From positions 1 through 22,879 of the IMG/VR virus record IMGVR_UViG_3300029286_000256: 22,879 nucleotides of DNA. The stretch is one strand, 5' to 3'. Every line of letters starts with the position of its first letter. Within the stretch, counting starts at the first letter, position 1. Under the pieces are notes generated by a model. It searched no databases, was not told where the DNA came from, and was given only the letters and a program-made list of their open reading frames with translations. Below, piece after piece: positions 762 through 22,869 of the stretch. Made by a program: the position numbers and the translations under genes. The stretch is from a virus.

Positions 762-764
762 TAA

Positions 765-787
765 AGGACTATGATAAAATAACCAAT
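765..787 (+). promoter_or_regulatory. Extended -10 promoter giving a leaderless portal mRNA
   Basis: AGGACTATGATAAAATA precedes the portal ATG. It contains TG-A-TAAAAT (772-780), an extended -10 box, with only 7 nt between the box and the ATG at 788. Transcription would therefore begin at or next to the A of the start codon. A weak -35-like TTGGTT lies at 751-756 with an 18-nt spacer. The same 17-mer occurs again before the gene at 14609. Confidence 0.7.
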
Positions 788-2956
788 ATGTCAATTATTT
801 TAAATAAGTACAGCAGATTCAATACGTATACGCCATCTGATTATGGACCTGAAGAGGTGAATTTTCAGGCAAAATTCCATCTACAGATGCAAGATGCGCG
901 TCAGTATTTTTTGCGTGTAATAAAACCTCGTTTGGATAGATCTTACAAGTTATATATCGCCTACAATGGTGATAGACAATTGCAAATTAAGCCATGGCAG
1001 TCAAACATATTCGTTCCCTACGTCCAAGCAGTCGTAGAGACCCTTATGCCTCGTGTCTTAGACGCAAGACCCGATTTTAATGTACAAGGAAGAACAGCAG
1101 ATGACCAGTTAAAAGCAGAAAAACAACAGCAATTGGGAGACTATCTATGGGAAATCTCAAAAATGGACAAGACAACCGAGGATGTAGTAAGATCATCACT
1201 CGTTTATGGTATGGGATATCTACAAGCATACTGGAAAAAGGACGTAAGAAAGCAAAAATTCCTAAAAACTAAAGACCTATTAAAGAAAAAATATGAATGG
1301 AAGGAAGAATCCAGAACTTTTTATGACGCACCAAGCGCAGAATGGGTAGACAACTACTCTTTGTTCTACGATTGGCACAATACAGAAAGAGCCAGCAAGC
1401 AATATTGGTTCAGAAGACTCGTTTTGACAGCTGCAGAGATCGTTAGACGATACCCAAATGCAGATCCAGAGAGATTAGCCCTCGCTTTGAACAATCCAGG
1501 AGGAGATTTACAAGATTATGCCTCAATCAGAGTCCAAGTTAAACAAAATCAAGACCTTACAGTTAAGGGTGTTAACACTTTTAACGGTCCAGCATACGGA
1601 TTTGGTAGTGATAAATACAATACATTCGGTGATCCAGAGTTACAGATGTACGAAGTGTTCGAATGGACACAACCTTTTGCCGATTGTTACTCAGTTCACG
1701 TTGGAGGAGGATGGACACCTATCTTAAAAGGAGGTTGGATGCCTATTCCTTACGATTTTAAGGAGTCAACATACATAGATTTCCCATATTTGAAGGTTCC
1801 AGGTGAATATGAAGGTTATGGCCTCCCTATGATCCTCGAAAATCCTCAAATCATGATGAATATGATCAAAAATCAGAGATTAGACGCTACAACCTTGTCA
1901 ATTCACAAGATGTGGATCGTAAATCCTCTCGCAAACATCAATAAAGAAGAATTGGTTACAAGACCATTCGGTATTATCTATTCAGTTGATCCAAACGGTG
2001 TTAGAGAAGTTCAATTTAGCGATATTAAGGCATCAGCATACAAAGAGGAAGACCTATTAAAGGCAGATATGAGATATGCATCAGGAGTTGATGACTTTTC
2101 AATGGGTGCTGGAGGCTCAGCAAGCTCAGCAACAGAAGTTAGACACCTTAGAGAGTCAACACTTGAAAGAGTTAGACTATTCGTTAACCATTTGGGTAAC
2201 GGATTCTCAGACTTGATGAGATATTGGATGGATATGTCAAGACAATTCTTTACAGCAGATATGACGATCAGAATCATCGGAGACGATGGTAAAGAGATGT
2301 TCCCTATTATACAAAAAGACGATCTTATGGGTATGTTTGACTACAAAGCAACAGTACTTCCATCAATCGCTGGACAACAAGATATTAAGAAGAAACAAGA
2401 CATGGATCTATTCCAACTTCTTATCAACTTACCATTCGTTGATCCACAAAAACTTACACAAAAGATTCTCGTTGATTGGAACTGGTCAATTGATTCAGTT
2501 GCAAAAGGAGAAGATCAAGCACAACCAACTTTGGGCCCAGACGGACAACCAGTCGGTCCAGACGGTCAACCAATGCCAGTCGGTCCAGACGGACAACCTA
2601 TGGCAATGCCAGCAGCAGACCCAATGGCAGATGCTCTTTCAGCAGGAGTTCCACAAGTTCCATCTCCAATGGGAGGTACAAGAAATATTCCAACGGACGT
2701 TGCCGCAAATGCTCTAGCAATGCTAAGAGGAGGCGCAGCAGCACCATCACCAATGGCACAAGCATCAACCCCAATCAATCTATTGAATATGGGAGGAATG
2801 CCACCAACAGCACCAAGAGTTGCCCTACCAACATCTAATCCACGAGGAATGAATAGAACTGGTAAAGTAAATACAAATACAAGTATGGGTAACAATAGTA
2901 ATCCTGAGAGTGCGTTGATGAACCAAGCATCAAGCCTTCAGAAAAAGAAGAAATAA
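788..2956 (+). CDS. Portal protein
   Basis: A 722-residue protein directly after the terminase. Position, length and the N-terminal half (for example IKPWQSNIFVPYVQAVVETL and VYGMGYLQAYWKKD) fit the portal family of podovirus-type phages, the dodecameric ring at the capsid vertex through which DNA enters and leaves. The core seems to end near residue 575. The last ~145 residues are low-complexity, with three GPDGQP units (about 583-605) and a Pro/Met/Ala-rich tail ending in KKKK. Residues 654-675 (SPMAQASTPINLLNMGG...) are repeated almost unchanged in the next gene. The ATG at 788 is chosen because it sits 7 nt after an extended -10 box and has no competing upstream start; no Shine-Dalgarno is present. 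The stop is followed after one base by the next ATG. Confidence 0.88.
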   Translation: MSIILNKYSRFNTYTPSDYGPEEVNFQAKFHLQMQDARQYFLRVIKPRLDRSYKLYIAYNGDRQLQIKPWQSNIFVPYVQAVVETLMPRVLDARPDFNVQGRTADDQLKAEKQQQLGDYLWEISKMDKTTEDVVRSSLVYGMGYLQAYWKKDVRKQKFLKTKDLLKKKYEWKEESRTFYDAPSAEWVDNYSLFYDWHNTERASKQYWFRRLVLTAAEIVRRYPNADPERLALALNNPGGDLQDYASIRVQVKQNQDLTVKGVNTFNGPAYGFGSDKYNTFGDPELQMYEVFEWTQPFADCYSVHVGGGWTPILKGGWMPIPYDFKESTYIDFPYLKVPGEYEGYGLPMILENPQIMMNMIKNQRLDATTLSIHKMWIVNPLANINKEELVTRPFGIIYSVDPNGVREVQFSDIKASAYKEEDLLKADMRYASGVDDFSMGAGGSASSATEVRHLRESTLERVRLFVNHLGNGFSDLMRYWMDMSRQFFTADMTIRIIGDDGKEMFPIIQKDDLMGMFDYKATVLPSIAGQQDIKKKQDMDLFQLLINLPFVDPQKLTQKILVDWNWSIDSVAKGEDQAQPTLGPDGQPVGPDGQPMPVGPDGQPMAMPAADPMADALSAGVPQVPSPMGGTRNIPTDVAANALAMLRGGAAAPSPMAQASTPINLLNMGGMPPTAPRVALPTSNPRGMNRTGKVNTNTSMGNNSNPESALMNQASSLQKKKK

Positions 2957-2957
2957 T

Positions 2958-3269
2958 ATGCCCTTTCAAAGTCTCGCACAAATGAGAGCCGCCTTCGCTG
3001 GCAAACTCGGACCTTCAATGCAGGCCCGTGCTCATGAGTGGGCAGACGCCACACCTAATATTAAGGATCTTCCAGAACATAAAACACAATCAAGAACAAA
3101 GAAGAGTATAGTTAAGAAATTAGTTAAGAAACATACAGGAAAGGGAGGAATGCCAAAATCACCCTTTGCACAAGCAAGCTCACCAATCAATTTATTAAGT
3201 ATGAGGGGAACACCGCCGACAGCAACGTCGATCCCTAAATCAAAGAATAATTCATTAGGAAAACAATAA
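2958..3269 (+). CDS. Small basic protein sharing a tail peptide with the portal
   Basis: A 103-residue lysine-rich protein of unknown function. The N-terminus (MPFQSLAQMRAAFAG, then HEWADATP) resembles the short MPF-K/Q-S-x-x-Q motif seen in many small phage proteins encoded beside head genes; this is recalled family knowledge and not a database hit. Residues 41-64 are strongly basic (KKSIVKKLVKKHTGKGG). Residues 68-89 (SPFAQASSPINLLSMRG...) match portal residues 654-675 closely, and the DNA there is also similar, suggesting a duplicated segment. The gene is joined to the portal by TAA-T-ATG and to the next gene by TAA-C-ATG, so translation is probably coupled. A role in head assembly or as a packaged protein is inference. 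Confidence 0.75.
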   Translation: MPFQSLAQMRAAFAGKLGPSMQARAHEWADATPNIKDLPEHKTQSRTKKSIVKKLVKKHTGKGGMPKSPFAQASSPINLLSMRGTPPTATSIPKSKNNSLGKQ

Positions 3270-3270
3270 C

Positions 3271-3507
3271 ATGGATAAGAAAAAGATATTACAAAAAGCG
3301 GTCAAGAGAGAGGTTCCTTCTGGGTTAGATGATTTAAAGATAAAGATAAAGAAGGTTCCCTCGACGAATGTCCCAATAGGTTCTAAATTTAGTAAGTTAG
3401 CATCGGTAGCCACACCAGTATCACAAATGACGCCAATACAGCAACAAGAGTGGTTTAGGAAGTCGATACCAATGTCTTATAAGCAAGTTAAAAACATAAA
3501 AAGATAA
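3271..3507 (+). CDS. Small lysine-rich protein (KKILQKA type)
   Basis: A 78-residue basic protein that I do not recognise. It opens with DKKKILQKAVKR, a version of the K-K-x-I-L-K-K-A motif that recurs in several proteins of this block. It continues with DDLKIKIKKVP and ends with a more hydrophobic stretch (MTPIQQQEWFRKSIPMSY) and a basic end (KQVKNIKR). There is no signal peptide or membrane segment. It lies third in the portal operon with one base between it and the genes on both sides and no Shine-Dalgarno. Translation of the tight junctions and the clean reading frame support it being real. Function is unknown; a nucleic-acid or capsid-interior role is a guess based on charge and location. 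Confidence 0.7.
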   Translation: MDKKKILQKAVKREVPSGLDDLKIKIKKVPSTNVPIGSKFSKLASVATPVSQMTPIQQQEWFRKSIPMSYKQVKNIKR

Positions 3508-3508
3508 C

Positions 3509-3949
3509 ATGAAAAACAAAAAAGCAATATTAAAAAAAGCATGTGGCAAAGGAGGCCCAATGGAAGGTATTAAGAATACCGCATCAGGAATCGTAGGAGC
3601 CGCAAAGAATGTAGCCAAGATAGTTGGCTCTGGTGCACGAGGAGCAATATCAAGTTATTCAGATACAAGAAAAGCAGATCAGAAGAACTTAGGTTTCTCA
3701 GATCCAGGAGCTTATCTTAACGCAGGTGTGAGAGGTTTAATGGGTGGAGTTGCAGCAGCGGCTAAAAAAGCAAAAGACCTATCAGACAAGAAACCTAAAG
3801 CAATACCAGCCATTAAAAGAGTTGCACCATCAGCACAACCACTTAAAACTTCAGTTCCACTTCAGAATAAACCAAGAACATCAATGCCGATAAATGCACC
3901 GACATCACTACCAGCGAAGAAGACAATATTAAAGAAGAAGTTAGTTTAA
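3509..3949 (+). CDS. Ala/Gly/Lys-rich protein with the KKxILKK motif at both ends
   Basis: A 146-residue basic protein of unknown function. It starts MKNKKAILKKACGKGG and ends AKKTILKKKLV, so the basic motif stands at both termini. Between them are two Gly/Ala stretches that could form amphipathic helices (SGIVGAAKNVAKIVGSGARGA near 28-48, AGVRGLMGGVAAAAKKAKDL near 72-91), followed by a Pro-rich linker (100-133). This helix-plus-linker make-up could suit a virion-internal or membrane-active protein, but no family was recognised. It is the last gene of the portal operon, one base after its neighbour; the next gene has its own start signal 24 nt downstream. Confidence 0.7.
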   Translation: MKNKKAILKKACGKGGPMEGIKNTASGIVGAAKNVAKIVGSGARGAISSYSDTRKADQKNLGFSDPGAYLNAGVRGLMGGVAAAAKKAKDLSDKKPKAIPAIKRVAPSAQPLKTSVPLQNKPRTSMPINAPTSLPAKKTILKKKLV

Positions 3950-3961
3950 TTATAAAAATAA

Positions 3962-3973
3962 TATAAAAACAAT
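3962..3973 (+). promoter_or_regulatory. Candidate -10 box for the gene at 3974
   Basis: TATAAA at 3962-3967 is followed by exactly 6 nt (AACAAT) and the ATG at 3974. This is the same spacing as at 8549, 8928, 10307 and 11403. The surrounding 24-nt gap is almost pure A/T, so a chance match is possible. Confidence 0.4.
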
Positions 3974-4333
3974 ATGAATAAAAATATAAACGAGATCAAG
4001 AATTACTTTACAAAAGATGTCAGAGATTCAATTAGGGAGATGTCTATATCAGACATGAACCAACTCTTACGTGAATTAGAAGGCACACCAGTATGGTTTG
4101 CTATTCTTAAATACACACAAGAGAGAATCGCGGTCATCCAAGATTCATTCTTGGTTATAGATCCAGTTAAAGAACCTTCAAAAATCTCACAATATCAAGG
4201 CGCCATTACAGGTATGCTTGATCTACAAGACGCTGTATTATCACTCAAATTTGAGTCAAAAAAGACAGAAAACCCTAAATATAAGGTAGAAAAACAGATA
4301 GAAGATAATGGCGGTGCATATGGGGTTGTTTAA
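3974..4333 (+). CDS. Hypothetical head-region protein
   Basis: A 119-residue protein, mostly helical in appearance. The centre (LRELEGTPVWFAILKYTQER, then a KISQYQGAITGMLDLQDAVLSL segment) recalls the small helical proteins often encoded just before the scaffold in podovirus-like phages; I cannot assign a named family. It is neutral to mildly basic, unlike its very basic neighbours. The start has an A-rich MNKN-type N-terminus (ATGAATAAAAAT), a feature shared with the genes at 5380 and 5574, and lies 6 nt after a TATAAA box. It is followed by a perfect extended -10 box for the next unit. Confidence 0.75.
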   Translation: MNKNINEIKNYFTKDVRDSIREMSISDMNQLLRELEGTPVWFAILKYTQERIAVIQDSFLVIDPVKEPSKISQYQGAITGMLDLQDAVLSLKFESKKTENPKYKVEKQIEDNGGAYGVV

Positions 4334-4347
4334 TTTTATTAAAAGTG

Positions 4348-4356
4348 TGTTATAAT
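4348..4356 (+). promoter_or_regulatory. Consensus extended -10 promoter
   Basis: TGTTATAAT is a perfect extended -10 element (TG at 4348-4349, TATAAT at 4351-4356). It lies 11 nt before the ATG at 4368, so the leader would be about 4-5 nt, too short for a Shine-Dalgarno. A weak TTGTTT lies at 4326-4331, 19 nt upstream. Confidence 0.7.
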
Positions 4357-4367
4357 GTTTGAATACA

Positions 4368-4619
4368 ATGAACATATCCAATCCAAAATCAGTTATAAAA
4401 GTTAAATCATCAATCGCCCCTAAACTGAGTGCGAAACTTTCTAGTCTCAAAAAGGCACCGAAAGTGGCAGGAGGTAGTTTGAATTCAGTAAAGGTTCCAA
4501 AAGGATCAAGACTCAAAACACCAAATTTTGCAAAAATGATGAAACCAAAGGCAGTCAAGTTAACAAAGATTACAGTATTAAAGAAAGCAGTTAAGGCAGC
4601 TAAACCCAAGGGATACTAA
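4368..4619 (+). CDS. Small lysine-rich protein (ITVLKKA type)
   Basis: An 83-residue, extremely basic protein with about one lysine in four and almost no acidic residues. Pairs of Ser/Val/Lys segments (SVIKVKSSIAPKL, LSSLKKAPKV, SVKVPKGSRLK) are followed by KITVLKKAVKAAKPKGY, containing the KKxILKKA-like motif at 67-74. Composition resembles histone-tail or protamine-like polypeptides, but no family is recognised. A TTG at 4359 is in frame but falls only 2 nt after the -10 box, so the ATG at 4368 is preferred. It heads a four-gene set joined by single-base gaps. Confidence 0.7.
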   Translation: MNISNPKSVIKVKSSIAPKLSAKLSSLKKAPKVAGGSLNSVKVPKGSRLKTPNFAKMMKPKAVKLTKITVLKKAVKAAKPKGY

Positions 4620-4620
4620 C

Positions 4621-4758
4621 ATGGACACAACACCCAATTACTCAGGACCCACAACAACAGCAACCTCAGCACAAGAGGGTCGCTTAAAGGTCGGAGTTGA
4701 AACAAGAAGGAAAATTATAAAGAAACATTTAAAGAAATACCCAAACTTAAAGAAATAG
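4621..4758 (+). CDS. Very small basic protein (45 aa)
   Basis: A 45-residue open frame between two well-placed genes: TAA-C-ATG before it and TAG-A-ATG after it. The first half is Thr/Ser/Pro-rich (MDTTPNYSGPTTTATSA) and the second half basic (TRRKIIKKHLKKYPNLKK). The KIIKKHLKK segment (31-39) resembles the end of the next gene product (VIINKHLKK), which supports it being a real protein. Function unknown. Confidence 0.65.
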   Translation: MDTTPNYSGPTTTATSAQEGRLKVGVETRRKIIKKHLKKYPNLKK

Positions 4759-4759
4759 A

Positions 4760-5065: not shown

Positions 5066-5066
5066 C

Positions 5067-5300: not shown

Positions 5301-5341
5301 CTGGATTAAGAGATCTGAAAATAATGAGGTTAGAGGGGGTA

Positions 5342-5379
5342 TTGCCAAGAATTTATAAGTAGAGTATAATATAACCAAT
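5342..5379 (+). promoter_or_regulatory. Sigma70-like promoter next to the ATG at 5380
   Basis: TTGCCA (5342-5347) and TATAAT (5365-5370) are separated by 17 nt, the best complete -35/-10 pair in the window. The ATG is 9 nt after the -10 box, so the transcript is nearly leaderless. The downstream spacer reads ATAACCAAT, close to AACCAAT at the portal start and AGCCAATAT at 14609. The region 5301-5341 before it holds nothing else that I recognise. Confidence 0.7.
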
Positions 5380-5532: not shown

Positions 5533-5573
5533 GTGTGATAATTGTTTGAGCTCAGTCAGTTTATTAATTTAAT

Positions 5574-6467: not shown

Positions 6468-8524
6468 ATGGCATACCCTTATTACACAGAGCCAACACAT
6501 CAAACAGGTCAAGTTATAAATCCTGCAGCAACTGGTTACCAAAGAACAACCACAACTGCAGCTTCAGAACAAAGACTTATCGTTGATGCGGTGGACAAAA
6601 TATTCTTACTCGAACCTAACAAGCACCCTCTAGTAACTCTTCTGACGAACGTTAACTTTAAACCAGCGTTCTTGTGCAGTAATGTACTTTAAAAATTAAT
6701 TGGCTATATGCTGGAAACCCCTAAAGCCACAATTACTTATAAACAGTTGTAATTTAAATGTAGGTAGTGTATACTATACATATGATACAACAAATAAGTG
6801 AAAATATTGTGGATAATACAATGGGCAATCAGCAGGAAACTATTTCTGATATAGAAATGAGTTGGCTAGCAGGGATTCTTGACGGTGAAGGTTCAATCGG
6901 TATAAGCCGAATGATGTCACATAGAAAGAATCCAACCTTGACACCTAGAATTAGTATAGGAAATACAAACATGGATATTATAAATCATGTTGTAGATATT
7001 TTAAAAAGAATTCCTATTACAATGTTCGTAGAAAAACGTCAAAAGGTTAATAATAAGAACTGGAAACAGGCATCTGTTATTCAAATAAGCCACATCAGTG
7101 GAGTTAAAAGTTTATTAGACAAAGTAACTCCATTCTTAATCGGTAAAAAGTCACAAGCAGAACTTCTTCTTTCATTCGTAAATTCACGAATGGAAGTGTA
7201 TAAAAAGTTGAATCGAACTCCTGGATCAGGAGGAAGAGGAACTCCATACACAGAAGAGGAACAACAACTTTGTGATCAAATTAAAATACTCAATAAAAAG
7301 GGTATCGAATAGACTCCTCAACGACTACACGCCAATCTCCTATATAAAAAATAGGATGAAGATATAGTCTGGTCTGCTGGGAAACCTGCAGAGATACACA
7401 GAAATGATGTATCCCTTGTTTTAACAAGGTAACAATCAAGTGGAAAAGTATGGGATGGAAAAGCATGGAAAGGATCAGGTATGATGAAGAGAGCTACAGG
7501 TAACCCTGAGTTCAAATGGTTTGAAGATGTTTACGGTGGTAGATACGCAAGAGCCTCAGGCGCTGACGTTTCTGCAGCTGCAAACCAAAACGTTACAGTA
7601 ACAGGTGCTGGATCAAGTTCGGCAGCTATCTTTACACTCGGAGACGTTGTAAAGAATGCAAGAACAGGTGAAGTATTCACTGTTGGAGCAGTCACAGTAG
7701 CAACAAACATCATAGTAGCAGCAGCAAGAGGCTTCGGTTCAACAGCAGCAGCTATTATCAAAGATGGAGACGGTTTGTTCATTATCGGAAACGTTAATGA
7801 AGAAAACTCAGGTGCAAGAAATGTTAACTCAACAGTTACAGCACCTCAGACAAACTACACACAGATTTTCAAAACCACAATTGCACTTTCAAATACAGAG
7901 AAAGAAGCTAACCTTTACGGAGGTAAAGATCTTCCTTATCAAAGAGCAAAGAAAGGTACAGAGCACGCACTAGATATCGAAAGAGCATTCTGGTGGGGTC
8001 AAAAGTTTGCAGATACAGGTCTTTATGGTCACCCACGAAGATCAACAGGAGGAGTTCATGAGTTCATTTCAGCAGGTAATTCTTATGTTCAAAATCAAAG
8101 CGGTCCATTGACAGCTCCAGATATGAACACATTCTTGAGAGAAGGATTTACTTACGGTAATGATACAAAAATGATCTTTGCTGGTGGTATCGTTTTGCAA
8201 GCTATCAACGAAATTGCAAGAGGACAAATTTTATGTAAACCAGTTGAAACAACATATGGTATGAAAATATCAACATGGGTTACAGCTTTCGGTACAGTAA
8301 ACATTGTTCACAACCCAATGTTCGTTCAAGATTTCGCAGGTTACGCATTTATGATGGATATGGAAAGCTTTGCTTACAGATTCATGAATAACAGAGATAC
8401 ATCTCTACAAACAAACATCCAAGCTCCAGACGCTGACGGTGAAGTAGATCAATATATCACTGAATGCGGACTTCAAAGAGAACAATCTCCAAAGCATGCA
8501 TTGCTATTAGGAGTTACATCTTAG
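6468..8524 (+). CDS. Major capsid protein, two exons (6468-6652 and 7441-8524)
   Basis: Joining the exons gives 1269 nt and a 422-residue protein. The junction falls inside codon 62 (GT/T, Val) and produces LLTNV-GKVWDGKAWKGSG, then RATGNPEFKWFEDVYGG. The segment DAVDKIFLLEPNKHPLVTLL and the NPEFKWFED motif are typical of the SU10-type (DUF5309-like) capsid proteins with an HK97 fold. Later parts (TVGAVTVATNIIVAAARGFG, ALDIERAFWWGQK, TGLYGHPRRSTGG, the C-terminal CGLQREQSPKHALLLG) fit too. It follows the scaffold, as expected. Without splicing, the first exon runs 12 codons into the intron and stops at TAA 6690-6692, giving a useless 74-aa peptide, so splicing is required. The start has the A-rich AAAAATT-ATGGCA context shared with three other virion genes. 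Confidence 0.9.
6653..7440 (+). mobile_element. Group I intron in the capsid gene
   Basis: A 788-nt self-splicing intron whose core can be traced by eye. P1: exon GAACGT (6647-6652) pairs with guide GCGTTC (6666-6671), with the U-G wobble at the splice site. P10: exon TGG (7441-7443) pairs with CCA (6663-6665) beside the guide. P3: ATTGGC (6699-6704) with GCCAAT (7331-7336). P4: TGCTG (6709-6713) with CAGCA (6830-6834). P7: GACTA (7323-7327) with TAGTC (7365-7369), the latter within the signature GAAGATATAGTC. P8: CCTAT/ATAGG (7339-7355). P9-type hairpins: TCTGC/GCAGA (7373-7392), GATACA/TGTATC (7393-7413), CCTTGT/ACAAGG (7414-7429). The last intron base is G7440, as required. Excision restores the capsid frame exactly. 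The endonuclease gene fills the P6 loop. Confidence 0.93.
6782..7312 (+). CDS. LAGLIDADG homing endonuclease inside the intron
   Basis: A 176-residue protein with one LAGLIDADG motif (WLAGILDGEGSIG, residues 28-40), so it should act as a homodimer. The central part (TPRISIGNTNMDIINHVVDIL) and the LLLSFVNSRM helix fit the family. These enzymes cut intron-free alleles and so spread the intron. The start is uncertain: ATG 6782 follows a TATACT box (6770-6775) by exactly 6 nt and suits the leaderless pattern; GTG 6767 lies upstream; ATG 6821 is also possible. The 5' coding part overlaps the intron core strand P4' (6830-6834), so bases here serve both protein and RNA fold. The stop TAG (7310-7312) falls just before P7. 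Confidence 0.88.
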   Translation: MIQQISENIVDNTMGNQQETISDIEMSWLAGILDGEGSIGISRMMSHRKNPTLTPRISIGNTNMDIINHVVDILKRIPITMFVEKRQKVNNKNWKQASVIQISHISGVKSLLDKVTPFLIGKKSQAELLLSFVNSRMEVYKKLNRTPGSGGRGTPYTEEEQQLCDQIKILNKKGIE

Positions 8525-8548
8525 TCTTCGTTAAGTTAAAATAAATTT

Positions 8549-8829
8549 ATGAAAATATGTCCAAAGTGTGGTAAGAAGAAGGATCCCAGTATGTTTTATT
8601 CAGATTTACTCTCACTTTGGATGATTTCATAAAGTTTTGGAATAAGAGTTGTCATTATTGCGGAGATGAAATTGAAGGAATTGGTTTAGATAGAATAGAT
8701 AATTCTATCGGATATGAGATTGAAAATGTGGCTCCATGTTGTGAAATATGTAATTACATGAAACAGTCTTCATCCAAAAAAACCTTTATTTCTCAATGTA
8801 AGAAGATCATCAAGTTTCAAAATAGTTAG
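8549..8829 (+). pseudogene. HNH endonuclease gene with a one-base frame break
   Basis: Two overlapping frames together make one HNH protein. From ATG 8549 comes MKICPKCGKKKDPSMFYSD with a CxxC pair; this frame stops at TAA 8630-8632. The -1 frame then continues FTLTLDDFIKFWNKSCHYCG, followed by GLDRIDNSIGYEIENVAPCC and EICNYMK, the core of a small Zn-binding HNH nuclease. One missing base near the TTT at 8605-8607 would explain the break and restore a 93-residue protein. The ATG lies 6 nt after TAAAAT (8537-8542), another leaderless-type start. Such free-standing genes spread by cutting intergenic sites. It may be decayed, a sequencing error or a programmed shift; no standard -1 slippery heptamer is seen in frame. 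Confidence 0.75.
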
Positions 8830-8927
8830 GCCCTTCGTTTTCCTGGGGCGTTAAATCAGGAGGATGTCCGATTTCGGATCGGTCCCCATTAGATACAGGG
8901 TTAGGTATCATTAATTAAAATAAAATT
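8830..8927 (+). other. Intergenic stretch with three small hairpins and a -10-like box
   Basis: Three inverted repeats follow each other: TCCTG/CAGGA (about 8842-8862), TCCG-ATTT-CGGA (about 8867-8878) and GATAC/GTATC (about 8892-8909). None is followed by a T run, so an intrinsic terminator is unlikely; a structured leader or a scar of the endonuclease insertion is possible. The end, TAAAAT (8916-8921) plus 6 nt and then ATG 8928, repeats the leaderless-type spacing. Confidence 0.4.
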
Positions 8928-9677
8928 ATGGCAAGCATGGAAGGATTAAAATCAAGATATTTGTTAAGAGAATCAAAAGTAGCAAGAGTATTAGATGATC
9001 AATCAGTAGCTATTAGAATCGCCTATAACGGCGCTTCAACATCAGCTCCAGTTATATCTATTATTACAGCTACATCATTGACCTTAACGACATCATTTGG
9101 TGCAACAGTATTTACTTTCGCAGGTTTATTCGGTACACTGGCTCTATTAGCTGCTGGAATTAATGCAGGCAAAGGAGACGCAGGTGCAGGAGCAGCCCTA
9201 GGAGGTTTTTCAGCAAGAATTCTGGATGCAGTTCCATCACAAATCACAACAGCTTCTAACTTGGTTGTTAGCGCTGGTCTAGTTGCTTCTTCAGTAGAAG
9301 GAGAATTGGTATATGATGCAATGTTGGATACATCAACATCAAAAAATGTCTGTTACAGAGTAGCTTATGATAGAAACGTAGTTTCTAGAAAAGCTGTTGC
9401 TGGACACAGAGTAGCCCTTGGAAATTTCTCATACAATGAGAACGTTTCAGGAGCAGAAGCAGCCGCAGTGAGAATTTACGAATTTAACCCAATCGACGGT
9501 TCTACGAACCTAGTATGGGCAGCAGTATCAGTTGACGCAATAGTTACTGCTATTGATTTCGCAGATTACCCATTGACAGCTTCAGAAGGTAGAGAATATG
9601 TAGTTATGATCTCAGATGCAACATCTTTGACAGACGCTGCTGTTAACTATCTACAGGTTGGTTTCATTAGAGAATAG
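8928..9677 (+). CDS. Structural protein, unknown (possible head decoration or neck)
   Basis: A 249-residue protein rich in Ala, Val, Ser and Thr. After a charged start (MASMEGLKSRYLLRESKVAR) it has alternating hydrophobic/polar stretches suggesting beta structure (VISIITATSLTLTTSFG, VYDAMLDTSTSKNVCYRVAY, REYVVMISDATSL). An Ala/Gly-rich segment at 62-90 (FAGLFGTLALLAAGINAG...) is hydrophobic but may be buried rather than membrane-spanning. I do not recognise a family. Being the next non-mobile gene after the capsid, a capsid-associated or connector role is likely by position. The start context TAAAAT-AAAATT-ATGGCA fits the other virion genes. The gene ends with TAG followed by two hairpins. 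Confidence 0.72.
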   Translation: MASMEGLKSRYLLRESKVARVLDDQSVAIRIAYNGASTSAPVISIITATSLTLTTSFGATVFTFAGLFGTLALLAAGINAGKGDAGAGAALGGFSARILDAVPSQITTASNLVVSAGLVASSVEGELVYDAMLDTSTSKNVCYRVAYDRNVVSRKAVAGHRVALGNFSYNENVSGAEAAAVRIYEFNPIDGSTNLVWAAVSVDAIVTAIDFADYPLTASEGREYVVMISDATSLTDAAVNYLQVGFIRE

Positions 9678-9705
9678 TCTCTAAAAAGAACTTTTGGTTC
9701 TATAG

Positions 9706-10291: not shown

Positions 10292-10300
10292 TGTTATGAT
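10292..10300 (+). promoter_or_regulatory. Extended -10 box before the second HNH gene
   Basis: TGTTATGAT (TG at 10292-10293, TATGAT at 10295-10300) is followed by exactly 6 nt and the ATG at 10307. The endonuclease gene thus seems to carry its own leaderless start and does not depend on read-through from the structural genes. Confidence 0.6.
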
Positions 10301-10306
10301 TTATAG

Positions 10307-10772
10307 ATGCCAACAGGTATTTATAAAAGAACAATTAATAGACACTGGAAAATAAATGACACTTCAAAAATGAAGGGGTCATTCTGGTGTGTATGTAAGA
10401 ACCCCAGATCACAAAAAGAAATTAAGTCTCATTAAGATCGGGAAGAGAAGACCAGATATTACAGGTGATAAAAATGGTAGATGGAGAGGGGGAATATCGA
10501 CTGAAAATGAAAAAATAAGGCATTCTTTAGAATCAAAATTATGGCAGAAGGGTGTCAAAAATAAAGACCATAATAGATGTCAAAAATGTGAAGAAAATAG
10601 GTTAAGTGTATTGACAGCACACCATATTTTTAACTTTTCTAAATATCCAGAACTTAGATTCGTAATAGATAACGGCATTACCTTTTGTAGACCTTGTCAC
10701 AAAGAATTTCATAGAATATATACAGTTAAAGATAATACGCCAGAACAAGTAAAAAGTTTCATTTCCAAATAG
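10307..10772 (+). pseudogene. HNH endonuclease gene with a one-base insertion
   Basis: ATG 10307 opens MPTGIYKRTINRHW...SKMKG, the usual start of NUMOD3-type phage HNH proteins, but this frame soon ends. Removing one G from GGGG (10375-10378) joins it to HSGVYVRTPDHKKKLSLIK, with GDKNGRWRGGIS after it. The HNH core follows: CQKC, LTAHHIFNFSKYPELRFVI, DNGITFCRPCHKEFH, giving two CxxC zinc pairs and the catalytic His region. The repaired protein has 154 residues. Without repair the longest frame begins at GTG 10389. The G run is a likely slip or sequencing-error site. The gene lies between two structural genes and has its own -10 box. Confidence 0.78.
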
Positions 10773-10777
10773 TACTA

Positions 10778-10786
10778 TGGTAGAAT
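10778..10786 (+). promoter_or_regulatory. Extended -10-like box before 10816
   Basis: TG-G-TAGAAT lies 29 nt before the ATG at 10816, within ACTATGGTAGAAT, which resembles GGACTATGATAAAAT at the portal promoter. The leader would be about 22 nt, A/T-rich (ATTTAAATAAAAACA) and without a Shine-Dalgarno. Confidence 0.45.
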
Positions 10787-10815: not shown

Positions 10816-11382
10816 ATGTCTAACGAAACTTTTTCTTTCTACTATGATCCTACACGTCAGGGATATGACGCCAACACATGGAGTACCATATCAGGTGCTC
10901 CTATTGTCGTTGCAAACCATCTCAGTTTAGGTAATTCAGAGATCATTCATTTCGCAGACCTCCTAAGAGGAGATCTTTCAATGAGTATCGGTATTGACGC
11001 CCCAGCAGCAGGAGATGCAAAGCAGTTCGGTTTCATGGCACATAACAAAGACGCACACCTTACTTTTAAAATAGCAGATGACGTATTGACAGCAGAATCT
11101 TCCGACGGTGTAACAGTATATTCACAAGCAATAGACTGGAACACAGATTGGAGTAATGTTGATACGGTCTTTAGAATCAAATGGGAACCAGGAATAGCCT
11201 TCTTTTATATCGATGGACAGTTAAAGGCTACATTTAGTGACGCCTATGCCCTAGGAGTCCCGACAATCGTTATTCCAGGGGATACAATGAGTATATATAT
11301 ATCAAACAACGCTAATAGTGCATTGTCTTTAGATTACTTCGAAGTACTAGGAATACAGAGTTCAAACCTGGAAGTGCTATAG
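10816..11382 (+). CDS. Lectin-like structural protein, copy 1
   Basis: A 188-residue protein with the look of a concanavalin A-like (LamG/GH16-type) beta sandwich. The strongest sign is FRIKWEPGIAFFYIDGQLKA, the strand pair common in these folds. The start YYDPTRQGYDANTW and the middle IIHFADLLRGD, HNKDAHLTF and AIDWNTDW are shared with the next gene, with which it is paralogous over its whole length. No catalytic glycosidase motif (E-x-D-x-x-E) is visible, so binding rather than hydrolysis is likely. A capsid or tail decoration with carbohydrate affinity is inference from the fold. The stop TAG overlaps the start of the next promoter element. Confidence 0.68.
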   Translation: MSNETFSFYYDPTRQGYDANTWSTISGAPIVVANHLSLGNSEIIHFADLLRGDLSMSIGIDAPAAGDAKQFGFMAHNKDAHLTFKIADDVLTAESSDGVTVYSQAIDWNTDWSNVDTVFRIKWEPGIAFFYIDGQLKATFSDAYALGVPTIVIPGDTMSIYISNNANSALSLDYFEVLGIQSSNLEVL

Positions 11383-11402
11383 GACTATGTTAATATATAA
11401 CC
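11381..11402 (+). promoter_or_regulatory. Extended -10 promoter between the lectin-like paralogues
   Basis: AGGACTATGTTAATAT matches the portal-type element (AGGACTATGATAAAAT). TG-T-TAATAT occupies 11388-11396 and is followed by 6 nt and the ATG at 11403, so the transcript should be leaderless. The element begins inside the stop codon of the previous gene. Confidence 0.65.
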
Positions 11403-12254
11403 ATGGCAAATCAATTTATTAATTTCACATACGATCCAGCACAAGAAGGTTTTGACCTAGATAGTTGGAGATTAGCTTACGGAGACGCAGATATAGTTGG
11501 TGGACAGTTACAATTAACAAAGGCCGCTATTATTCATTATGGAGATATACTTCGTGGTGATGCAGTTTTTAGTATAAACATAGCCAAACCAGTACTTGGA
11601 GATAACTCCAGGTTCGGTTTTATTCAATACAATAAAAACGCATATCTATTATTTCAAATAGTAGACGGTGTATTAACAGCAGAATGTTCTAATGGAACAA
11701 CATCAGCATCCTCAGCCGCAATAGACTGGAATGATGATTGGACAGATACAGATATAGAATTCAGGATCAAATGGGAGGCTGGAACAGCCACATTCTTCAT
11801 AGATAAACAGTTTAAAGCAGTATTTAATGATACATATACCTTAGGAGTACCAGTTAAGTTGATTCCAGGCTCACCAATGAGCTTATATGCAGCTACAGAT
11901 GCCCCAGACCTAATGCTTATCGATTACATCGAAGTTAAAGGCATACAAGGATTCGTTATGAGTCAAGGTAATGCAGATTCAAGTTTTGAAATGATCGTAA
12001 AAGAGTCAGATAAACTTAATATCGCCGAGGCTATTGTTATGGCAATGGCAGCAGAAGAAGAGGTAAATAAGGTAGATTCTATATCAATATCAGAAAATAA
12101 AACAGTAGATTTACCAGTTAATCCAGTTTCGGTTGTAGATTCAATAAGCATCGCTGAAGATCTAGTTGTACCAGTAATTGATATGGGAGACGCAACCGCT
12201 GTGGATAACCCATCCATCGAAGACGTCGTAACCGTAGATCCACCAACAGAATAG
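11403..12254 (+). CDS. Lectin-like structural protein, copy 2, with V-x-D-x-I-x-I repeats
   Basis: A 283-residue protein. Residues 1-185 are paralogous to the preceding gene (TYDPAQEGFDLDSW, IIHYGDILRGD, AIDWNDDWTD, FRIKWEAGTATFFIDKQFKA). A ~95-residue extension follows with repeats of the type V-D-S-I-S-I-x-E: SDKLNIAEAIVM, VDSISISENKTV, VDSISIAEDLVV, and an acidic end. Similar repeats open the 1520-aa protein at 16798, which hints at a shared structural or docking element. The lectin-like fold is inferred from the strand pattern. A strong intrinsic terminator lies 19 nt after the stop. Confidence 0.7.
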   Translation: MANQFINFTYDPAQEGFDLDSWRLAYGDADIVGGQLQLTKAAIIHYGDILRGDAVFSINIAKPVLGDNSRFGFIQYNKNAYLLFQIVDGVLTAECSNGTTSASSAAIDWNDDWTDTDIEFRIKWEAGTATFFIDKQFKAVFNDTYTLGVPVKLIPGSPMSLYAATDAPDLMLIDYIEVKGIQGFVMSQGNADSSFEMIVKESDKLNIAEAIVMAMAAEEEVNKVDSISISENKTVDLPVNPVSVVDSISIAEDLVVPVIDMGDATAVDNPSIEDVVTVDPPTE

Positions 12255-12315: not shown

Positions 12316-12450
12316 TATAATGATAGATGTTAAAAACAATTTAAAAAATGAATATGTATATTTCAATACAATGTTTTGGTTACTAGGTCGAACTTGTAAG
12401 CAAAATGTTAATCTAGATTAGTATTTTTAATAGAAACTTTTAGAAAAATT
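12316..12450 (+). promoter_or_regulatory. Promoter and ~120-nt leader of the gene at 12451
   Basis: TATAAT at 12316-12321 lies just after the terminator. The start would be near 12328, giving a leader of about 120 nt. The ATG codons inside (12327, 12349) open only 5-13 codon frames. The leader ends in TTTTAGAAAAATT before ATGGCA, nearly identical to the capsid gene start. No clear -35 or Shine-Dalgarno is visible. Confidence 0.5.
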
Positions 12451-13606: not shown

Positions 13607-13607
13607 T

Positions 13608-14543: not shown

Positions 14544-14552
14544 CGACTAGAC

Positions 14553-14580
14553 AAACACCTCAGAAATGGGGTGTTTTTCT
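14553..14580 (+). terminator. Intrinsic terminator
   Basis: AAACACC (14553-14559) pairs with GGTGTTT (14570-14576) over a 10-nt loop, with TTTTT at 14574-14578. It ends the methyltransferase/glycosyltransferase unit. The next promoter starts 4 nt later. Confidence 0.85.
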
Positions 14581-14583
14581 ATT

Positions 14584-14608
14584 AGGACTATGATAAAATA
14601 GCCAATAT
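14584..14608 (+). promoter_or_regulatory. Portal-type extended -10 promoter
   Basis: AGGACTATGATAAAATA is identical over 17 nt to the element before the portal gene, and the next bases (GCCAATAT) differ from the portal copy by one base plus a 2-nt insertion. TG-A-TAAAAT is at 14591-14599; the ATG at 14609 is 9 nt further. The leader would be 0-3 nt. Confidence 0.72.
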
Positions 14609-14857
14609 ATGAATAATAACAATTTAAATGACGGTCAAGTGCATAAGGTTCTTTTTAGTAAGGGTAAACTATATCTTGACGGTGTTCAGATAGGTGGCGA
14701 AGATGTCGCACCTGGAAAAGACATCGGTTTCGAGTTTAGAACTAATCCCCCAGTAGAACCAATTAAGGAGGTTACAGCAGCGAAAGATCCCTCAGTTTTA
14801 GAAATTAATGTTCACGATAAGGTCGCTGGACGATCAGTAGGTCCAGGACAAATTTAA
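14609..14857 (+). CDS. Small protein at the head of the tail-fibre operon
   Basis: An 82-residue protein of unknown function. The start MNNNNLNDG is A-rich, as in other near-leaderless genes here. The core (VHKVLFSKGKLYLDGVQIGG) looks like two beta strands and a turn, similar to a fragment of a lectin-like sheet. The middle is Pro/Glu-rich (NPPVEPIKEV) and the C-terminus polar. It is separated from the next fibre gene by 7 nt. Position suggests a fibre-associated or chaperone-like protein, but nothing in the sequence proves this. Confidence 0.62.
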   Translation: MNNNNLNDGQVHKVLFSKGKLYLDGVQIGGEDVAPGKDIGFEFRTNPPVEPIKEVTAAKDPSVLEINVHDKVAGRSVGPGQI

Positions 14858-14864
14858 ATAATAA

Positions 14865-16796: not shown

Positions 16797-16797
16797 T

Positions 16798-19700: not shown

Positions 19701-21360
19701 TGATATAAGTGCAACAGGTATAACTTTTGCTGGAGGGGGTAGACAATACAACAATATCTGGTTCTCAAGAGGTTTGAGTACTGGAACAAATACAATAACG
19801 GGAGCAAATACTTTTGCATCTTTTGTTGATGGTGGTACAACAGCACACATAGACACATTCCCAGCAACAACAATAAACACATTCGCGTCACTTGCTATCA
19901 CTGGAAGAGAAAGTCAATTAATAACGTTGTCTTCAGCGACCGCTGGAACAAGAACAATACTAATAGATACCGCTGGAACAAATACATGTAATTATATATT
20001 AGCAAAAGATACCCTAGTTTCAGGAGGAGCAACATGGGTTGGGGGAGCAAACAGTTCCTTTATAAATAGCGTAGGATGGTCAGACTTACCCGCAGCTCCA
20101 ACTAGATATTGGGTTTCTGGAGGCAACGGAAACTGGAGTAGCAACACCAACTGGTCTGCAACTGATGGGGGTCCAAGATATGCATCAATTCCTACTGGGG
20201 ATACAGATGTTTTCTTCACGGCAAACTCTGGGTCAGGTATATCTACGATAAATTCAGCGTCTGCAGTGGGGAATCTTAACTTCACGGGTTTTACTGGAAC
20301 ATTGGCAGGATCAGGAGCTCTAACCTTGAATGGAAGTTTGACACTGGGAAGTGGAATGACAATAACTTATACAGGAGCCATTGGAACAGATCTTACTTTT
20401 GCAAATAATACAATTACATCTAACTCAAAAACACTATTAAGCGCAGTAACACTTGGAAAGGCACTTCTTTCATCATACGTCACTGACTCTTGGACACTTC
20501 AAGATGATTTTTCCGCCACGGGTTTGGTTCTCACACAGGGAACATTTAATTCAAATAATAAAGCTTTAACTTTGGGATCTTTCAACTCAGTAAATAGTAA
20601 CGTTAGAACTCTTAATTTGGGTACTAATACATGGACAATTACTGGGACTGGAACGGCCTGGAGAATCGTCGGTTTAGTTGGTATTACACTCAATCCAAGT
20701 ACTTCTACAATTAAAATGACAAATACCTCTTCAAGCACAGTTACCTTTGAGGGAGGAGTATTAACCTACAATAACCTATGGTTTGCTAGGGGGGCAAGTA
20801 GTGGTGAATCTCAAGTGGGTGTAAATACAACCTTTAACGACATTAAGGACGATGGGACAATCGCTCACAACCTATCATTTCAGGCAAACATGACCACAAC
20901 ATGTAACACCTTTACGGTTAATGGAAATCCTGGAAATGTAATTACAATAAAATCAACTACACCTGGTACACGTTTTGTATTAAACAACAAAAAAACAATC
21001 GTTTCTGATTACTTGTCTATTTCTGATTCAGTGGTTACAGGTACTGCATATGCGGGCGCAAATTCCGTTGCGACAAATACAATTGGAGTGACAACTAGTG
21101 ACAATGTGGGTTGGATCTTTGCTGCACCATCAACTGTAATAGCAGGACAAGCAACAAAATCGAGTGTGGGTGTTTCTGGCGCCGTTGTAAGACTCATTAG
21201 ACAAATAGATAACGTAGAAGTTGATCAAACAACGACTGATGGAAGTGGAAACTACTCATTCTATGCCCCTTCAACGAATAAATACCATGTTTGTATAGAA
21301 TATACGGATGGAGGAGTGAAATACAACGCAAAATCGCTTTGGGAGTTAACACCAGCTTAA
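16798..21360 (+). CDS. Giant repetitive tail-spike/fibre protein (1520 aa)
   Basis: The N-terminal ~100 residues hold repeats of the V-x-D-x-I-x-I-x-E type (IVNDINIIEL, VVDRLSVSED, IVNDIRISEQ, VAENINIS), as at the end of the protein at 11403. Three large units follow, each opened by a Trp/Gly/Asn motif: YWYGGTGNWSDGATHW (about 109), IWNGTAGGNFSTVARW (about 586) and YWVSGGNGNWSSNTNW (about 1103). Each continues into hundreds of residues of Gly/Thr/Asn-rich short strands (for example LTLNGSLTLGSGMTI), as in right-handed beta-helices of spikes and adhesins. The last ~75 residues (GVSGAVVRLIRQ, TTDGSGNYSFYAPS, YNAKSLWELTPA) form a carboxypeptidase-regulatory-like domain common at phage fibre ends. 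Host binding is the likely role. It is one base after the preceding gene. Confidence 0.8.
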   Translation: MDIDIFDGLNIREVSLGVTTYEINIVNDINIIELPTEWVLFDFEIGVVDRLSVSEDLTRNRDLEIDIVNDIRISEQTTQFPLFDYEIGVAENINISNPSAVKNNPLKVYWYGGTGNWSDGATHWSRNSGNLIADGIAAPNDTSTIACWDGNSGIGTCTINSVGGSIGGFDFTGVSPNLTIAGSASFSSFYGNLTLQAGMSLTCTSALSNMKGTNIITSNGVVWKGYIQQGTSSGTIILADDFVSNDATGYRCTLGQVELNGHSCEFKVIQIDGADPNTRGFKDSVGGGSLRLSGNNTVLWLGIASSSVTLTNIPYITCTYTGSVGTRSFRSSTTHGSLNPSFKFIGGTDIISFDSGAVLGDLDFTGFSGTLANTSFSASSLKLSDTMTATAGASTITLNGNGTTDVAGIKYIKTGAGKVFPSNLTINGTGKTFQLEDDLSTAYNFIMTAGTLNPNGKNFTFTGATPTYTPTVVTNFYNLSLVATTPAAANVFSIAGAGGTIISNNLTINHGTDNTKRLLVSSSSFGTQRSISVGGVVSAENVDFRDILGIGSATWDVSGATYYTGDCGGNTFKALGAAAFTTATNQIWNGTAGGNFSTVARWTSRIPLPQDTAIFNGVDLGTSQTIVQDLIRCPGINFTGATWTTGFTFTMSTACDLYGSLILITGMTLGAATQTYTLRGRHGITRVLDTAGLTLTKAVIQDNWEGTYQIGAGDFILAAAQTYTLTSGNLDLNGNTFSTGIFNTTGTVTRAILDVATGGSFLVTGNATTVWTSAVSTGLTCTPIIDFNYSGATGTRTITGSSTELGSAHFSITAGTDATTITAGIRSLNFTGYSGTTANSVRTIYGNLTVPNTGTHTGGANATTFAATSGTKSITTNTKTLDYPITINGVGGTFQLADNLTMGVTRTLTVTNGTFNTNSFVLSTGLFTMSGVAQTINLGSETHLLTGTGTVFTGTLGTLSGSYTLKISDISATGITFAGGGRQYNNIWFSRGLSTGTNTITGANTFASFVDGGTTAHIDTFPATTINTFASLAITGRESQLITLSSATAGTRTILIDTAGTNTCNYILAKDTLVSGGATWVGGANSSFINSVGWSDLPAAPTRYWVSGGNGNWSSNTNWSATDGGPRYASIPTGDTDVFFTANSGSGISTINSASAVGNLNFTGFTGTLAGSGALTLNGSLTLGSGMTITYTGAIGTDLTFANNTITSNSKTLLSAVTLGKALLSSYVTDSWTLQDDFSATGLVLTQGTFNSNNKALTLGSFNSVNSNVRTLNLGTNTWTITGTGTAWRIVGLVGITLNPSTSTIKMTNTSSSTVTFEGGVLTYNNLWFARGASSGESQVGVNTTFNDIKDDGTIAHNLSFQANMTTTCNTFTVNGNPGNVITIKSTTPGTRFVLNNKKTIVSDYLSISDSVVTGTAYAGANSVATNTIGVTTSDNVGWIFAAPSTVIAGQATKSSVGVSGAVVRLIRQIDNVEVDQTTTDGSGNYSFYAPSTNKYHVCIEYTDGGVKYNAKSLWELTPA

Positions 21361-21364
21361 TTTT

Positions 21365-21508
21365 ATGTATACACCACCTATAGGAACAGCAGCAGATTTG
21401 GTTTTAGAAGCGTATACTCCACCTGTTGGAACCGCTGCGAACTTTGATTTGGACGGTGGAACACCTCCAATACCAACAAATACGGGCAATTTCTTCTTAT
21501 TTATGTAG
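21365..21508 (+). CDS. 47-aa protein with two PPxGTAA repeats
   Basis: The frame starts 4 nt after the giant fibre stop and encodes MYTPPIGTAADLVLEA, then YTPPVGTAANFDLDGG, and ends GNFFLFM. The Y-T-P-P-x-G-T-A-A-x-F-x-L repeat is like the PPxGxxxxF repeats seen in the C-terminal parts of many phage spike proteins. It may be a separate small virion protein or a detached end of the fibre gene. No Shine-Dalgarno is seen. Its TAG stop overlaps the start of the next promoter. Confidence 0.6.
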   Translation: MYTPPIGTAADLVLEAYTPPVGTAANFDLDGGTPPIPTNTGNFFLFM

Positions 21509-21530
21509 GACTGTAGTATAATATAACAAT
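21508..21530 (+). promoter_or_regulatory. Consensus -10 box before the lysis pair
   Basis: GGACTGTAGTATAAT resembles the portal-type element (GGACTATGATAAAAT) but has a full TATAAT (21517-21522). The ATG at 21531 is 8 nt after the box, so the transcript should start at or next to the ATG. Confidence 0.7.
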
Positions 21531-21893
21531 ATGGAAATATCAGAATTAATATCAATTATTGGAGGAAGTTTGGGTGTCCTAGCTATGATATTTGGAGCCT
21601 TTAATTACTTTAGAAAACCTCAGGAAACATCAGCTGAGAACGACATTCGATTTGATGAAAAAATAAAAGGGGATAACAAAATGTTTGACGAGAAATTTAG
21701 AGCACTCACGGAAAAATTTGACACCAGATTCCAAGATATGAAGGACGGCGTTGTTAAAGTCATGCAAAATGACCTACAAGAAGTCAAATCCGAGTTGAGA
21801 AGCCACGTCTCAAACCAGACAGTATATGAAAGAGAAATGGCAAAAGAATTAGGAGGATTGAACGCAAAATTAGATATTTTAATAAAAAAATAA
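21531..21893 (+). CDS. Membrane-anchored coiled-coil protein (possible holin)
   Basis: A 120-residue protein with one predicted membrane segment at about 6-26 (LISIIGGSLGVLAMIFGAFNY), then RKP and a long polar, helical region to the end. Heptad-like spacing (FDEKIKGDNKMFDEKFRALT, then FDTRFQDMKD and LQEVKSELRSHV) suggests a coiled coil. This make-up, one N-terminal span and a cytoplasmic or periplasmic coil, is found in XhlA-like and other phage lysis-associated proteins. It is joined by TAA-T-ATG to a papain-like enzyme with a cell-wall-binding domain, which makes a holin or enzyme-tethering role likely but unproven. Confidence 0.68.
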   Translation: MEISELISIIGGSLGVLAMIFGAFNYFRKPQETSAENDIRFDEKIKGDNKMFDEKFRALTEKFDTRFQDMKDGVVKVMQNDLQEVKSELRSHVSNQTVYEREMAKELGGLNAKLDILIKK

Positions 21894-21894
21894 T

Positions 21895-22869
21895 ATGGAT
21901 AATACACCTTACCTTGGAGCTAGAGATGATCAATCAACGGCCCAGAAAGCCAAAAACTACAACTTTAATGAAGTAGTGGCTACTGCTGGACCTGTAACTT
22001 GGGTTGAAAAAACTCAAGATCAGTGGAAGAAATTCCCGATTAGAGATCAGGATGGTTCAGGACAGTGTGTTGTTATGACTTATGCAAAAGAATGTTCTAT
22101 TTACTTTAAAGAAAAGTATGGAGTCTATGTTGAGTTTTCTTCTTCTTATCCCTATCAATATAGAACAAGTCCGTCTTTATCTGGTTGTAGTTCTACCGAT
22201 ATTTACTCTGTATTTCCCAAATTGGGGAACGTATTTGAGTCATTTATGCCGTCCCAAAAAATAAATGATGCAGGCGCGATGTCTGTAAAGAAAGAATCTT
22301 ATTTTGATGATTTAGCAAAGGTGTATAAATTCAGTAGAATTTCTATGCCAACAAGTTTTGAATTAGTGGCCTCTACATTGGAAGCGACGGGAAGAGCGGT
22401 GATGGTTTGGTTTCGCTTCTCACACGATGAATGGACTAATATGCCCACAGTTCTTCCTCAGCCAACCACTTCTGGACACTCTGTTACCGTCGTAGATTAT
22501 GTTTTATTTAACGGTAAGAAATATTTAGTAATAGATGATTCATGGGGACTTGCATATGCCATGAATGGACAGAGACTCATTTCAGAAGAGTATTTTAACG
22601 CAAGATGTTTTTTGACATCATATTTAATGAACTTCAGAGTTCAAAATAACGATTTGGTTTCTAGACCGAAGTTTGACGGATCAATTGCAAGCATGCAGGA
22701 TTGTCTAAAATGGGAAGGTTTATTCCCTGTGAATGTAGACAGTACAGGAGTAATTGGTAATGTTACAACTCAGGCCTTGATTTCTTTTCAGTTAAGGTAT
22801 AATATAAAACCATCACTTGGTAATTTCGGTCCAATTACTAAAGGAAAGTTATTAGCTTTATATAAATAA
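21895..22869 (+). CDS. Papain-like cysteine peptidase with peptidoglycan-binding domain (putative lysin)
   Basis: A 324-residue protein. RDQDGSGQCVVMTYAKEC aligns with the papain active-site helix: Gln52 as oxyanion residue and Cys58 as nucleophile, six apart as in papain. TSGHSVTVVDYVLFNGKKYL supplies His185, and IDDSWG matches the papain NSWG with Asp205 in place of the usual Asn. Residues ~243-324 (SIASMQDCLKWEGLFPVNVD, GVIGNVTTQALISFQL, ITKGKLLALYK) form a peptidoglycan-binding type 1 domain. The combination suggests cleavage of peptide bonds in the cell wall or surface proteins during release or entry. There is no signal peptide, so export would need the preceding membrane protein. A last ATG at 22872, two bases after the stop, may begin a further gene outside the window. 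Confidence 0.82.
   Translation: MDNTPYLGARDDQSTAQKAKNYNFNEVVATAGPVTWVEKTQDQWKKFPIRDQDGSGQCVVMTYAKECSIYFKEKYGVYVEFSSSYPYQYRTSPSLSGCSSTDIYSVFPKLGNVFESFMPSQKINDAGAMSVKKESYFDDLAKVYKFSRISMPTSFELVASTLEATGRAVMVWFRFSHDEWTNMPTVLPQPTTSGHSVTVVDYVLFNGKKYLVIDDSWGLAYAMNGQRLISEEYFNARCFLTSYLMNFRVQNNDLVSRPKFDGSIASMQDCLKWEGLFPVNVDSTGVIGNVTTQALISFQLRYNIKPSLGNFGPITKGKLLALYK

Follow-up and report, generated by a model that had tools for sequence, protein, structure and literature searches.

A GGACT-bearing extended -10 promoter, often at leaderless distance from its gene, in phages that probably infect Patescibacteria

Introduction

Bacteria are already known to have leaderless genes whose start lies close to a -10 box: in TA-led genes a TANNNT box precedes the start codon by around 12 bp, and a Shine-Dalgarno (SD) sequence is missing (Zheng et al. 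2011, PMC3160421). Many leaderless messenger RNAs (mRNAs) have been recognized in Mycobacterium from mapped 5' ends (PMC3898074, PMC4633059), the 70S ribosome starts on the 5'-terminal AUG of such mRNAs (PMC9031893), and a passing remark describes phage transcripts as often leaderless (PMC5312081). Here we analyse the complete IMG/VR virus record IMGVR_UViG_3300029286_000256 (22.9 kb; 22,879 nucleotides, hereafter the window), which covers the genes from head to tail of a tailed phage whose portal and capsid are SU10/P22-like, together with a conserved promoter, GGACTNTGNTAWAAT, that precedes several of its genes. A sequence-only reading of the window had placed -10 boxes 6-9 nt before ten ATGs and had concluded that leaderless starts occur throughout the block, that the host translates leaderless mRNA as a main route and that the phage is adapted to it. 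This inference is partly supported: it was largely right, but overgeneralised.

The phage promoter resembles that of the TA-led genes (PMC3160421) in the box near the start and the missing SD, but adds an upstream GGACT, and about half of the phage promoters lie at a leadered distance. With the sigma-70 extended -10 promoter (TGnTATAAT) it shares TGn and the -10 hexamer, but it adds the conserved GGACT directly upstream and has no clear -35 element. Whereas the many leaderless mRNAs of Mycobacterium are supported by mapped 5' ends, those described here are predicted from sequence only, and some lineages of the presumed host phylum show no SD excess at all. The phage is like SU10/P22-like phages in its portal, capsid and terminase families and differs from them in gene starts without SD and in its portal, for which tblastn against 50,697 deposited phage records gave no match. 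The Strigamonas phage, compared here by description only, is likewise a tailed phage assigned to Patescibacteriota but is reported to read UGA as glycine (PMC13059738). The GGACT promoter with its two-part spacing and the accompanying host-phylum pattern appear undescribed in the literature searched, and no report was found of leaderless mRNA in Patescibacteria, Saccharibacteria, Parcubacteria or their phages, in a search that was thin on subscription journals and preprints.

Results

Spacing of the ten boxes in the window

Twenty-eight plausible starts were listed in the window, and the six hexamers named by the sequence-only reading were scored 6-9 nt upstream of each. Exactly the ten named starts, and no others, carried a box at this distance, with 0-3 starts in each of the other 4-nt distance bins. 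The shuffled-sequence control proposed at the time did not reproduce the spacing: shuffled upstream regions gave a mean of 1.09 starts with a box at 6-9 nt and a maximum of 5 in 2000 trials, against the 10 observed. Among the other ATGs of the window, such a box preceded 4 of 447 on the + strand and 7 of 297 on the - strand. The lack of SD sequences was also borne out, with no excess of SD-like 4-mers, which occurred at 3/28 starts (3271, 4621 and 16798). The ten boxes are nevertheless unequal: four belong to the conserved phage motif, two are other plausible -10 elements, one is a bare TATAAT and three are A-rich.

A conserved promoter across the phage family

GGACTNTGNTAWAAT, a promoter conserved in the phages, accounts for the boxes of ATGs 788, 11403, 14609 and 21531; it joins an extended -10 (TGnTAWAAT) to a GGACT just upstream, at about -21 to -17. 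TGn directly precedes the -10 hexamer at 788, 11403 and 14609, and TAG takes its place at 21531. The comparison set consisted of about 100 related phage contigs, with 91 IMG/VR relatives found by portal and 32 by capsid. Upstream regions of the portal gene, compared in about 80 relatives, were of two kinds: one holds the conserved block GGACTNTGNTAWAAT at 6 to 26 nt from the ATG; in the other, which lacks a promoter, the terminase stop is followed by an A/T-rich run. A weight matrix built from the first kind, when run over 1.17 Mb of relatives, yielded 79 deduplicated sites of at least 13 bits on the coding strand; the opposite strand gave 11 and simulated sequence 12. In a search for a -35 element at 17 +/- 1 nt, the phage set showed a weak T-rich signal.

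After the addition of four large records, spacing was counted for the 59 sites that lay outside genes and no more than 45 nt from a start. Twenty-six sites lie 6-9 nt from the start codon (6 nt, 11; 7 nt, 3; 8 nt, 8; 9 nt, 4), none at 0-5 nt, none at 10-11 nt and 33 at 12-40 nt; the excess at 6-9 nt has P 6e-13 against a uniform spread. By spacing, about 44% of the family promoters would thus be leaderless and the rest would have short leaders. Orthologues of a gene of ~1070 amino acids (aa) keep the motif at 6 nt (L035, L060), 7 nt (L047), 8 nt (L038, L041) or 9 nt (L039) from the ATG, and the flanking sequence differs among these six relatives. Conserved N-termini of the portal and the ~1070-aa protein support the called starts of these two genes. 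The two-part spacing and the orthologue distances together indicate that the leaderless layout is real and distinct from the short-leader layout, with one promoter serving both.

SD-like 4-mers in the phage family do not exceed their number in shuffled sequence (20 vs 23.7 and 23 vs 30.6), and an SD is present in 1 of the 33 short leaders. The bases immediately before most starts are enriched in A. In genes further down a unit, a stop codon often lies 1-5 nt before the next ATG, and a 1-nt stop-start gap is found at 39 family junctions, 26 of them TAATATG. In the window, many starts in the block are operon-internal and without any box, often in the form TAAtATG or TAAcATG with 1 nt between stop and start. 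The reading of leaderless starts throughout the block is not supported in that form: three of the ten boxes are probably not promoters, and many genes are stop-start coupled or preceded by A-rich leaders.

GGACTNTGNTAWAAT is probably a late promoter, as judged from where the matrix sites fall in two large records that have it, mostly in and around the structural block. In a 97-kb record (G382), 10/11 matrix matches are outside genes, all on the + strand at 20-63 kb, a stretch that includes structural genes, and similar matches, fewer in number, occur in a 65-kb record (G383). The motif by itself was rejected as a specific marker: in an exact search of all viral contigs, most matches fell inside genes and several intergenic ones preceded SD-like leaders.

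Presumed hosts

Alignment of the portal against 85k bacterial and archaeal species genomes found relatives in only two metagenome-assembled genomes (MAGs), of about 0.5 and 0.8 Mb, both from one phylum, taken by inference to be Patescibacteriota; its sampled members are 0.4-2.0 Mb. The phage group probably infects Patescibacteria. The possibility that host genes flank the phage on the MAG contig was rejected, the Pfam matches there being phage-like or general.

The -10-to-ATG distances were also compared in candidate hosts, as suggested by the sequence-only reading. TG-extended -10 boxes at 6-9 nt exceed expectation in G001, the MAG carrying a relative (8 observed vs 0.2 expected), in G066 (15 vs 1.1) and in about 40 other genomes of the phylum (33 vs 1.6), and in G066 C6 (L253-L272) the spacing is again two-part, at 6 nt with a second peak at 20-28 nt. 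An Escherichia coli control had 0 boxes at 6-9 nt and a strong SD signal (11 vs 1.3). In G066, whose anti-SD is canonical, SD-like 4-mers do not exceed the chance level, and in G001 they are close to it, whereas SD-like signals in the pooled host-phylum sample are above chance (46 vs 20), so SD usage differs between lineages. The 6-9 nt peak is thus present, with little or no SD in some lineages but not across the pool.

Loss of the anti-SD was rejected as the cause of the missing SD, since 10 of the 11 16S ribosomal RNA tails read hold CACCTCC and the eleventh holds CACTTCC. Loss of ribosomal protein S1 was also unsupported: most of the host-phylum genomes tested have a shorter S1 homologue, about four domains long. 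Predicted leaderless and short-leader starts outnumber SD-led ones in some presumed-host lineages, in which the 16S tail is kept. The host promoters are without GGACT and have a somewhat clearer TTG than the phage set. GGACT was rejected as a host promoter element, the exact motif-plus-ATG occurring in 4/145 genomes with one intergenic-looking case; since host promoters are without GGACT and the exact motif is rare in host genomes, it seems to be the phage's own. As a separate observation, the 16S genes L108 (G002) and L285 (G140) span 1824 and 2437 nt against a 1533-position model, which suggests insertions or introns.

Individual promoter sites

All sites described here are on the + strand. 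The portal promoter, GGACTATGATAAAAT (766..780), lies 7 nt before ATG 788, and those relatives that have a promoter keep the motif before their portal gene. GGACTATGTTAATAT (11382..11396) lies 6 nt before ATG 11403, the start of a predicted leaderless gene (11403..12254) of the 10816/11403 paralogue family. A second GGACTATGATAAAAT (14585..14599) stands 9 nt before ATG 14609, directly after a terminator-like hairpin read by eye at about 14550-14579, and heads a predicted leaderless small open reading frame (ORF) of 82 aa (14609..14857); in L038 a GGACT-type promoter lies 8 nt before the orthologue of 14865, the gene that follows 14609 in the window. GGACTGTAGTATAAT (21508..21522) lies 8 nt before ATG 21531 and a predicted leaderless ORF of 120 aa (21531..21893). 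The short-leader form is represented by GTACTATGGTAGAAT (10772..10786), 29 nt before ATG 10816.

The boxes of 6782 and 10307 are plausible -10 elements heading homing-endonuclease genes. The first belongs to a promoter-like TTGTAA-17 nt-TATACT site (6747..6775), 6 nt before the ATG of an endonuclease gene borne by the capsid-gene intron (LAGLIDADG_3, 0.0026; phrog_5046, 6e-16), so that the intron harbours a LAGLIDADG gene with a promoter-like site of its own. The second is the extended -10 TGTTATGAT (TGT-TATGAT, 10292..10300), 6 nt before ATG 10307 of a frameshifted-looking HNH gene, with the HNH match (PF01844, 8e-6) in the 10389 frame. The bare TATAAT (5365..5370), 9 nt before ATG 5380 of a 50-aa ORF, may or may not be a promoter: it has neither GGACT nor a TG element, and the orthologues have short AT-rich gaps. 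A-rich leaders, rather than promoters, more likely account for the TATAAA before 3974 (3962..3967), the weak, A-rich TAAAAT before the frameshifted-looking HNH gene at 8549 (8537..8542) and the TAAAAT before 8928 (8916..8921). In the orthologues of 3974 and 8928 the start follows a conserved A-rich leader without a promoter; at 8928 the orthologue leader consists of conserved pseudoknots followed by an A-rich stretch.

Gene content and other elements of the window

The + strand carries every main gene of the window: the C-terminal part of the terminase (3-761), the predicted leaderless portal gene (788..2956; PF16510, 3e-21; PF23899, 5e-18), whose N-terminus is kept in relatives, small ORFs, a gene where the scaffold is usually encoded (5574), the major capsid gene (6468-6692 and about 7442-8524) and, downstream of it, tail and fibre-like genes and a gene whose product has weak cysteine-peptidase and peptidoglycan-binding matches. 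Homology to tailed phages covers portal (PF16510/PF23899), capsid (PF17236) and terminase (PF17289), and the SU10/P22-like homology of portal and capsid is established. The capsid gene is split by a group I intron (6693-7441), matched at 7163-7391 with E 1.2e-9, under the Rfam gathering score. A search of the window for transfer RNA genes found none. Two HNH endonuclease genes (8549-8829 and 10307-10772) look frameshifted in the contig, or reflect assembly errors.

Several leader elements were also observed. A recurrent leader, TTAATTATGAANAAAA..ATG, precedes 5574, 9780 and their orthologues and places an extra ATG, in varying frame, about 11-16 nt before the real start; it may be a 5' decoy AUG or a conserved leader element. 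The near-palindrome GTTAATCTAGATTAG (about 12408-12422), a possible operator whose distance to the ATG of gene 12451 is about 30-45 nt, is kept in orthologues L003, L005 and L045 while neighbouring sequence varies. Two tandem H-type pseudoknots lie at about 8830-8912, and relatives have them in the corresponding stretch from the capsid stop to the following gene (e.g. L023 10296-10444, L013 9470-9606); examples are GTCC-TTCACC-TCCCTG-GGAC-GATAAAT-CAGGGA and CCCG-ATTA-GGTCA-CGGG-TCAT-TGACC. The stems vary while pairing is kept, and a strict pseudoknot was found in 25/34 upstream regions against 1.5 in shuffled ones, with two in 11/34 against 0. An Rfam scan gave no gathering-level family in the window and none convincing in L023. 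Pseudoknot-driven readthrough of the capsid stop codon was rejected, as frames differ and stops usually follow soon; the tandem pseudoknots possibly serve mRNA end protection or as a translation leader.

Discussion

Our results make it likely that late units of this phage family start at GGACTNTGNTAWAAT, often leaderless and otherwise with a short leader, in a layout that matches that of the presumed Patescibacteria hosts. The extended -10 would be opened by RNA polymerase carrying the host sigma factor, possibly helped by a phage factor for GGACT, and transcription would begin 6-9 nt past the box, on the A of the ATG, to give a leaderless mRNA on which a 70S ribosome would initiate at the 5'-terminal AUG. 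A box 12-40 nt from the ATG would yield a short leader, almost always without SD, and downstream genes of the unit would use termination-reinitiation. Whereas the motif, the spacing peak, the lack of an SD excess, the matching peak in host-phylum genomes and the anti-SD were observed directly, we infer the start points, leaderless translation, late timing, host identity and the reading of GGACT by host polymerase plus phage factor.

Chance matches in A+T-rich start regions could produce such boxes, with A-rich unstructured leaders mimicking TAAAAT or TATAAA while low structure and S1-type binding drive initiation. This is likely true for 3974, 8928 and perhaps 8549, where orthologue leaders are A-rich without promoter elements, and it fits the A enrichment before most starts and the S1 homologue in most host-phylum genomes tested. 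As a general account it is improbable: neither the GGACT nor the TG element is A-rich, their 6-9 nt peak is sharp, the count is not reproduced by shuffles or other ATGs, and in the general viral set the motif occurs without such strong clustering. The boxes might instead be real promoters whose start point is slightly upstream, giving very short 5' untranslated regions of 1-5 nt in a continuum with the 12-40 nt class. Spacings of 7-9 nt are together as common as 6 nt, and the 12-40 nt class also lacks SD; on the other hand, the gap at 10-11 nt and the absence of sites below 6 nt make the distribution two-part rather than continuous, and the largest class, 6 nt, places the ATG at +1 under standard geometry, which leaves this explanation rather unlikely.

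We consider it very unlikely that the promoters are minor or regulatory and that translation proceeds mainly from long readthrough transcripts of upstream late genes via stop-start coupling. The arrangement of the main window genes on one strand and the common short stop-start gaps (39 junctions with a 1-nt gap) would suit such transcripts, but the terminator-like hairpin stands directly before the 14585 promoter, and motif and spacing are kept where neighbouring sequence is not.

Several points weigh against leaderless late promoters tied to Patescibacteria hosts. More than half of the family promoters (33/59) are at a leadered distance, one of them in the window, where the GGACT-type promoter at 10772-10786 had been overlooked by the sequence-only reading. 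Many relatives lack a GGACT promoter before the portal gene, and two other large records have no matrix matches outside genes. The matrix was derived from portal-upstream sites chosen by eye, which are themselves among the 59 counted. The contig of the first MAG, with the closest relative, looks phage-only, so the host link is one of co-binning; the pooled host-phylum sample has its SD excess; and, since GGACT does not feature in host promoters, the identity of the polymerase reading it is presumed.

The earlier proposal that the host uses leaderless mRNA as a main route, with the phage adapted to it, therefore holds in its non-random spacing common to the host phylum and falters on the leadered majority of phage promoters. 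The 6-9 nt placement itself stands, recurring at orthologous genes with differing surroundings and in the presumed host phylum. A broader proposal, which we regard as evenly balanced between right and wrong, is that some Patescibacteria lineages have largely dropped SD initiation for leaderless and short-leader mRNAs while retaining the anti-SD, and that their phages have a dedicated late promoter, GGACTNTGNTAWAAT, that couples the start of transcription to the start codon.

Patescibacteria, whose ribosomes are reduced, make up a very large, mostly uncultured share of bacterial diversity. Their choice of start codons matters for gene prediction, in which starts called with an SD model would often be wrong, and for ribosome evolution, including why a little-used anti-SD persists. 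For the phages, GGACTNTGNTAWAAT offers a short, testable sequence tag for late promoters that may aid host assignment.

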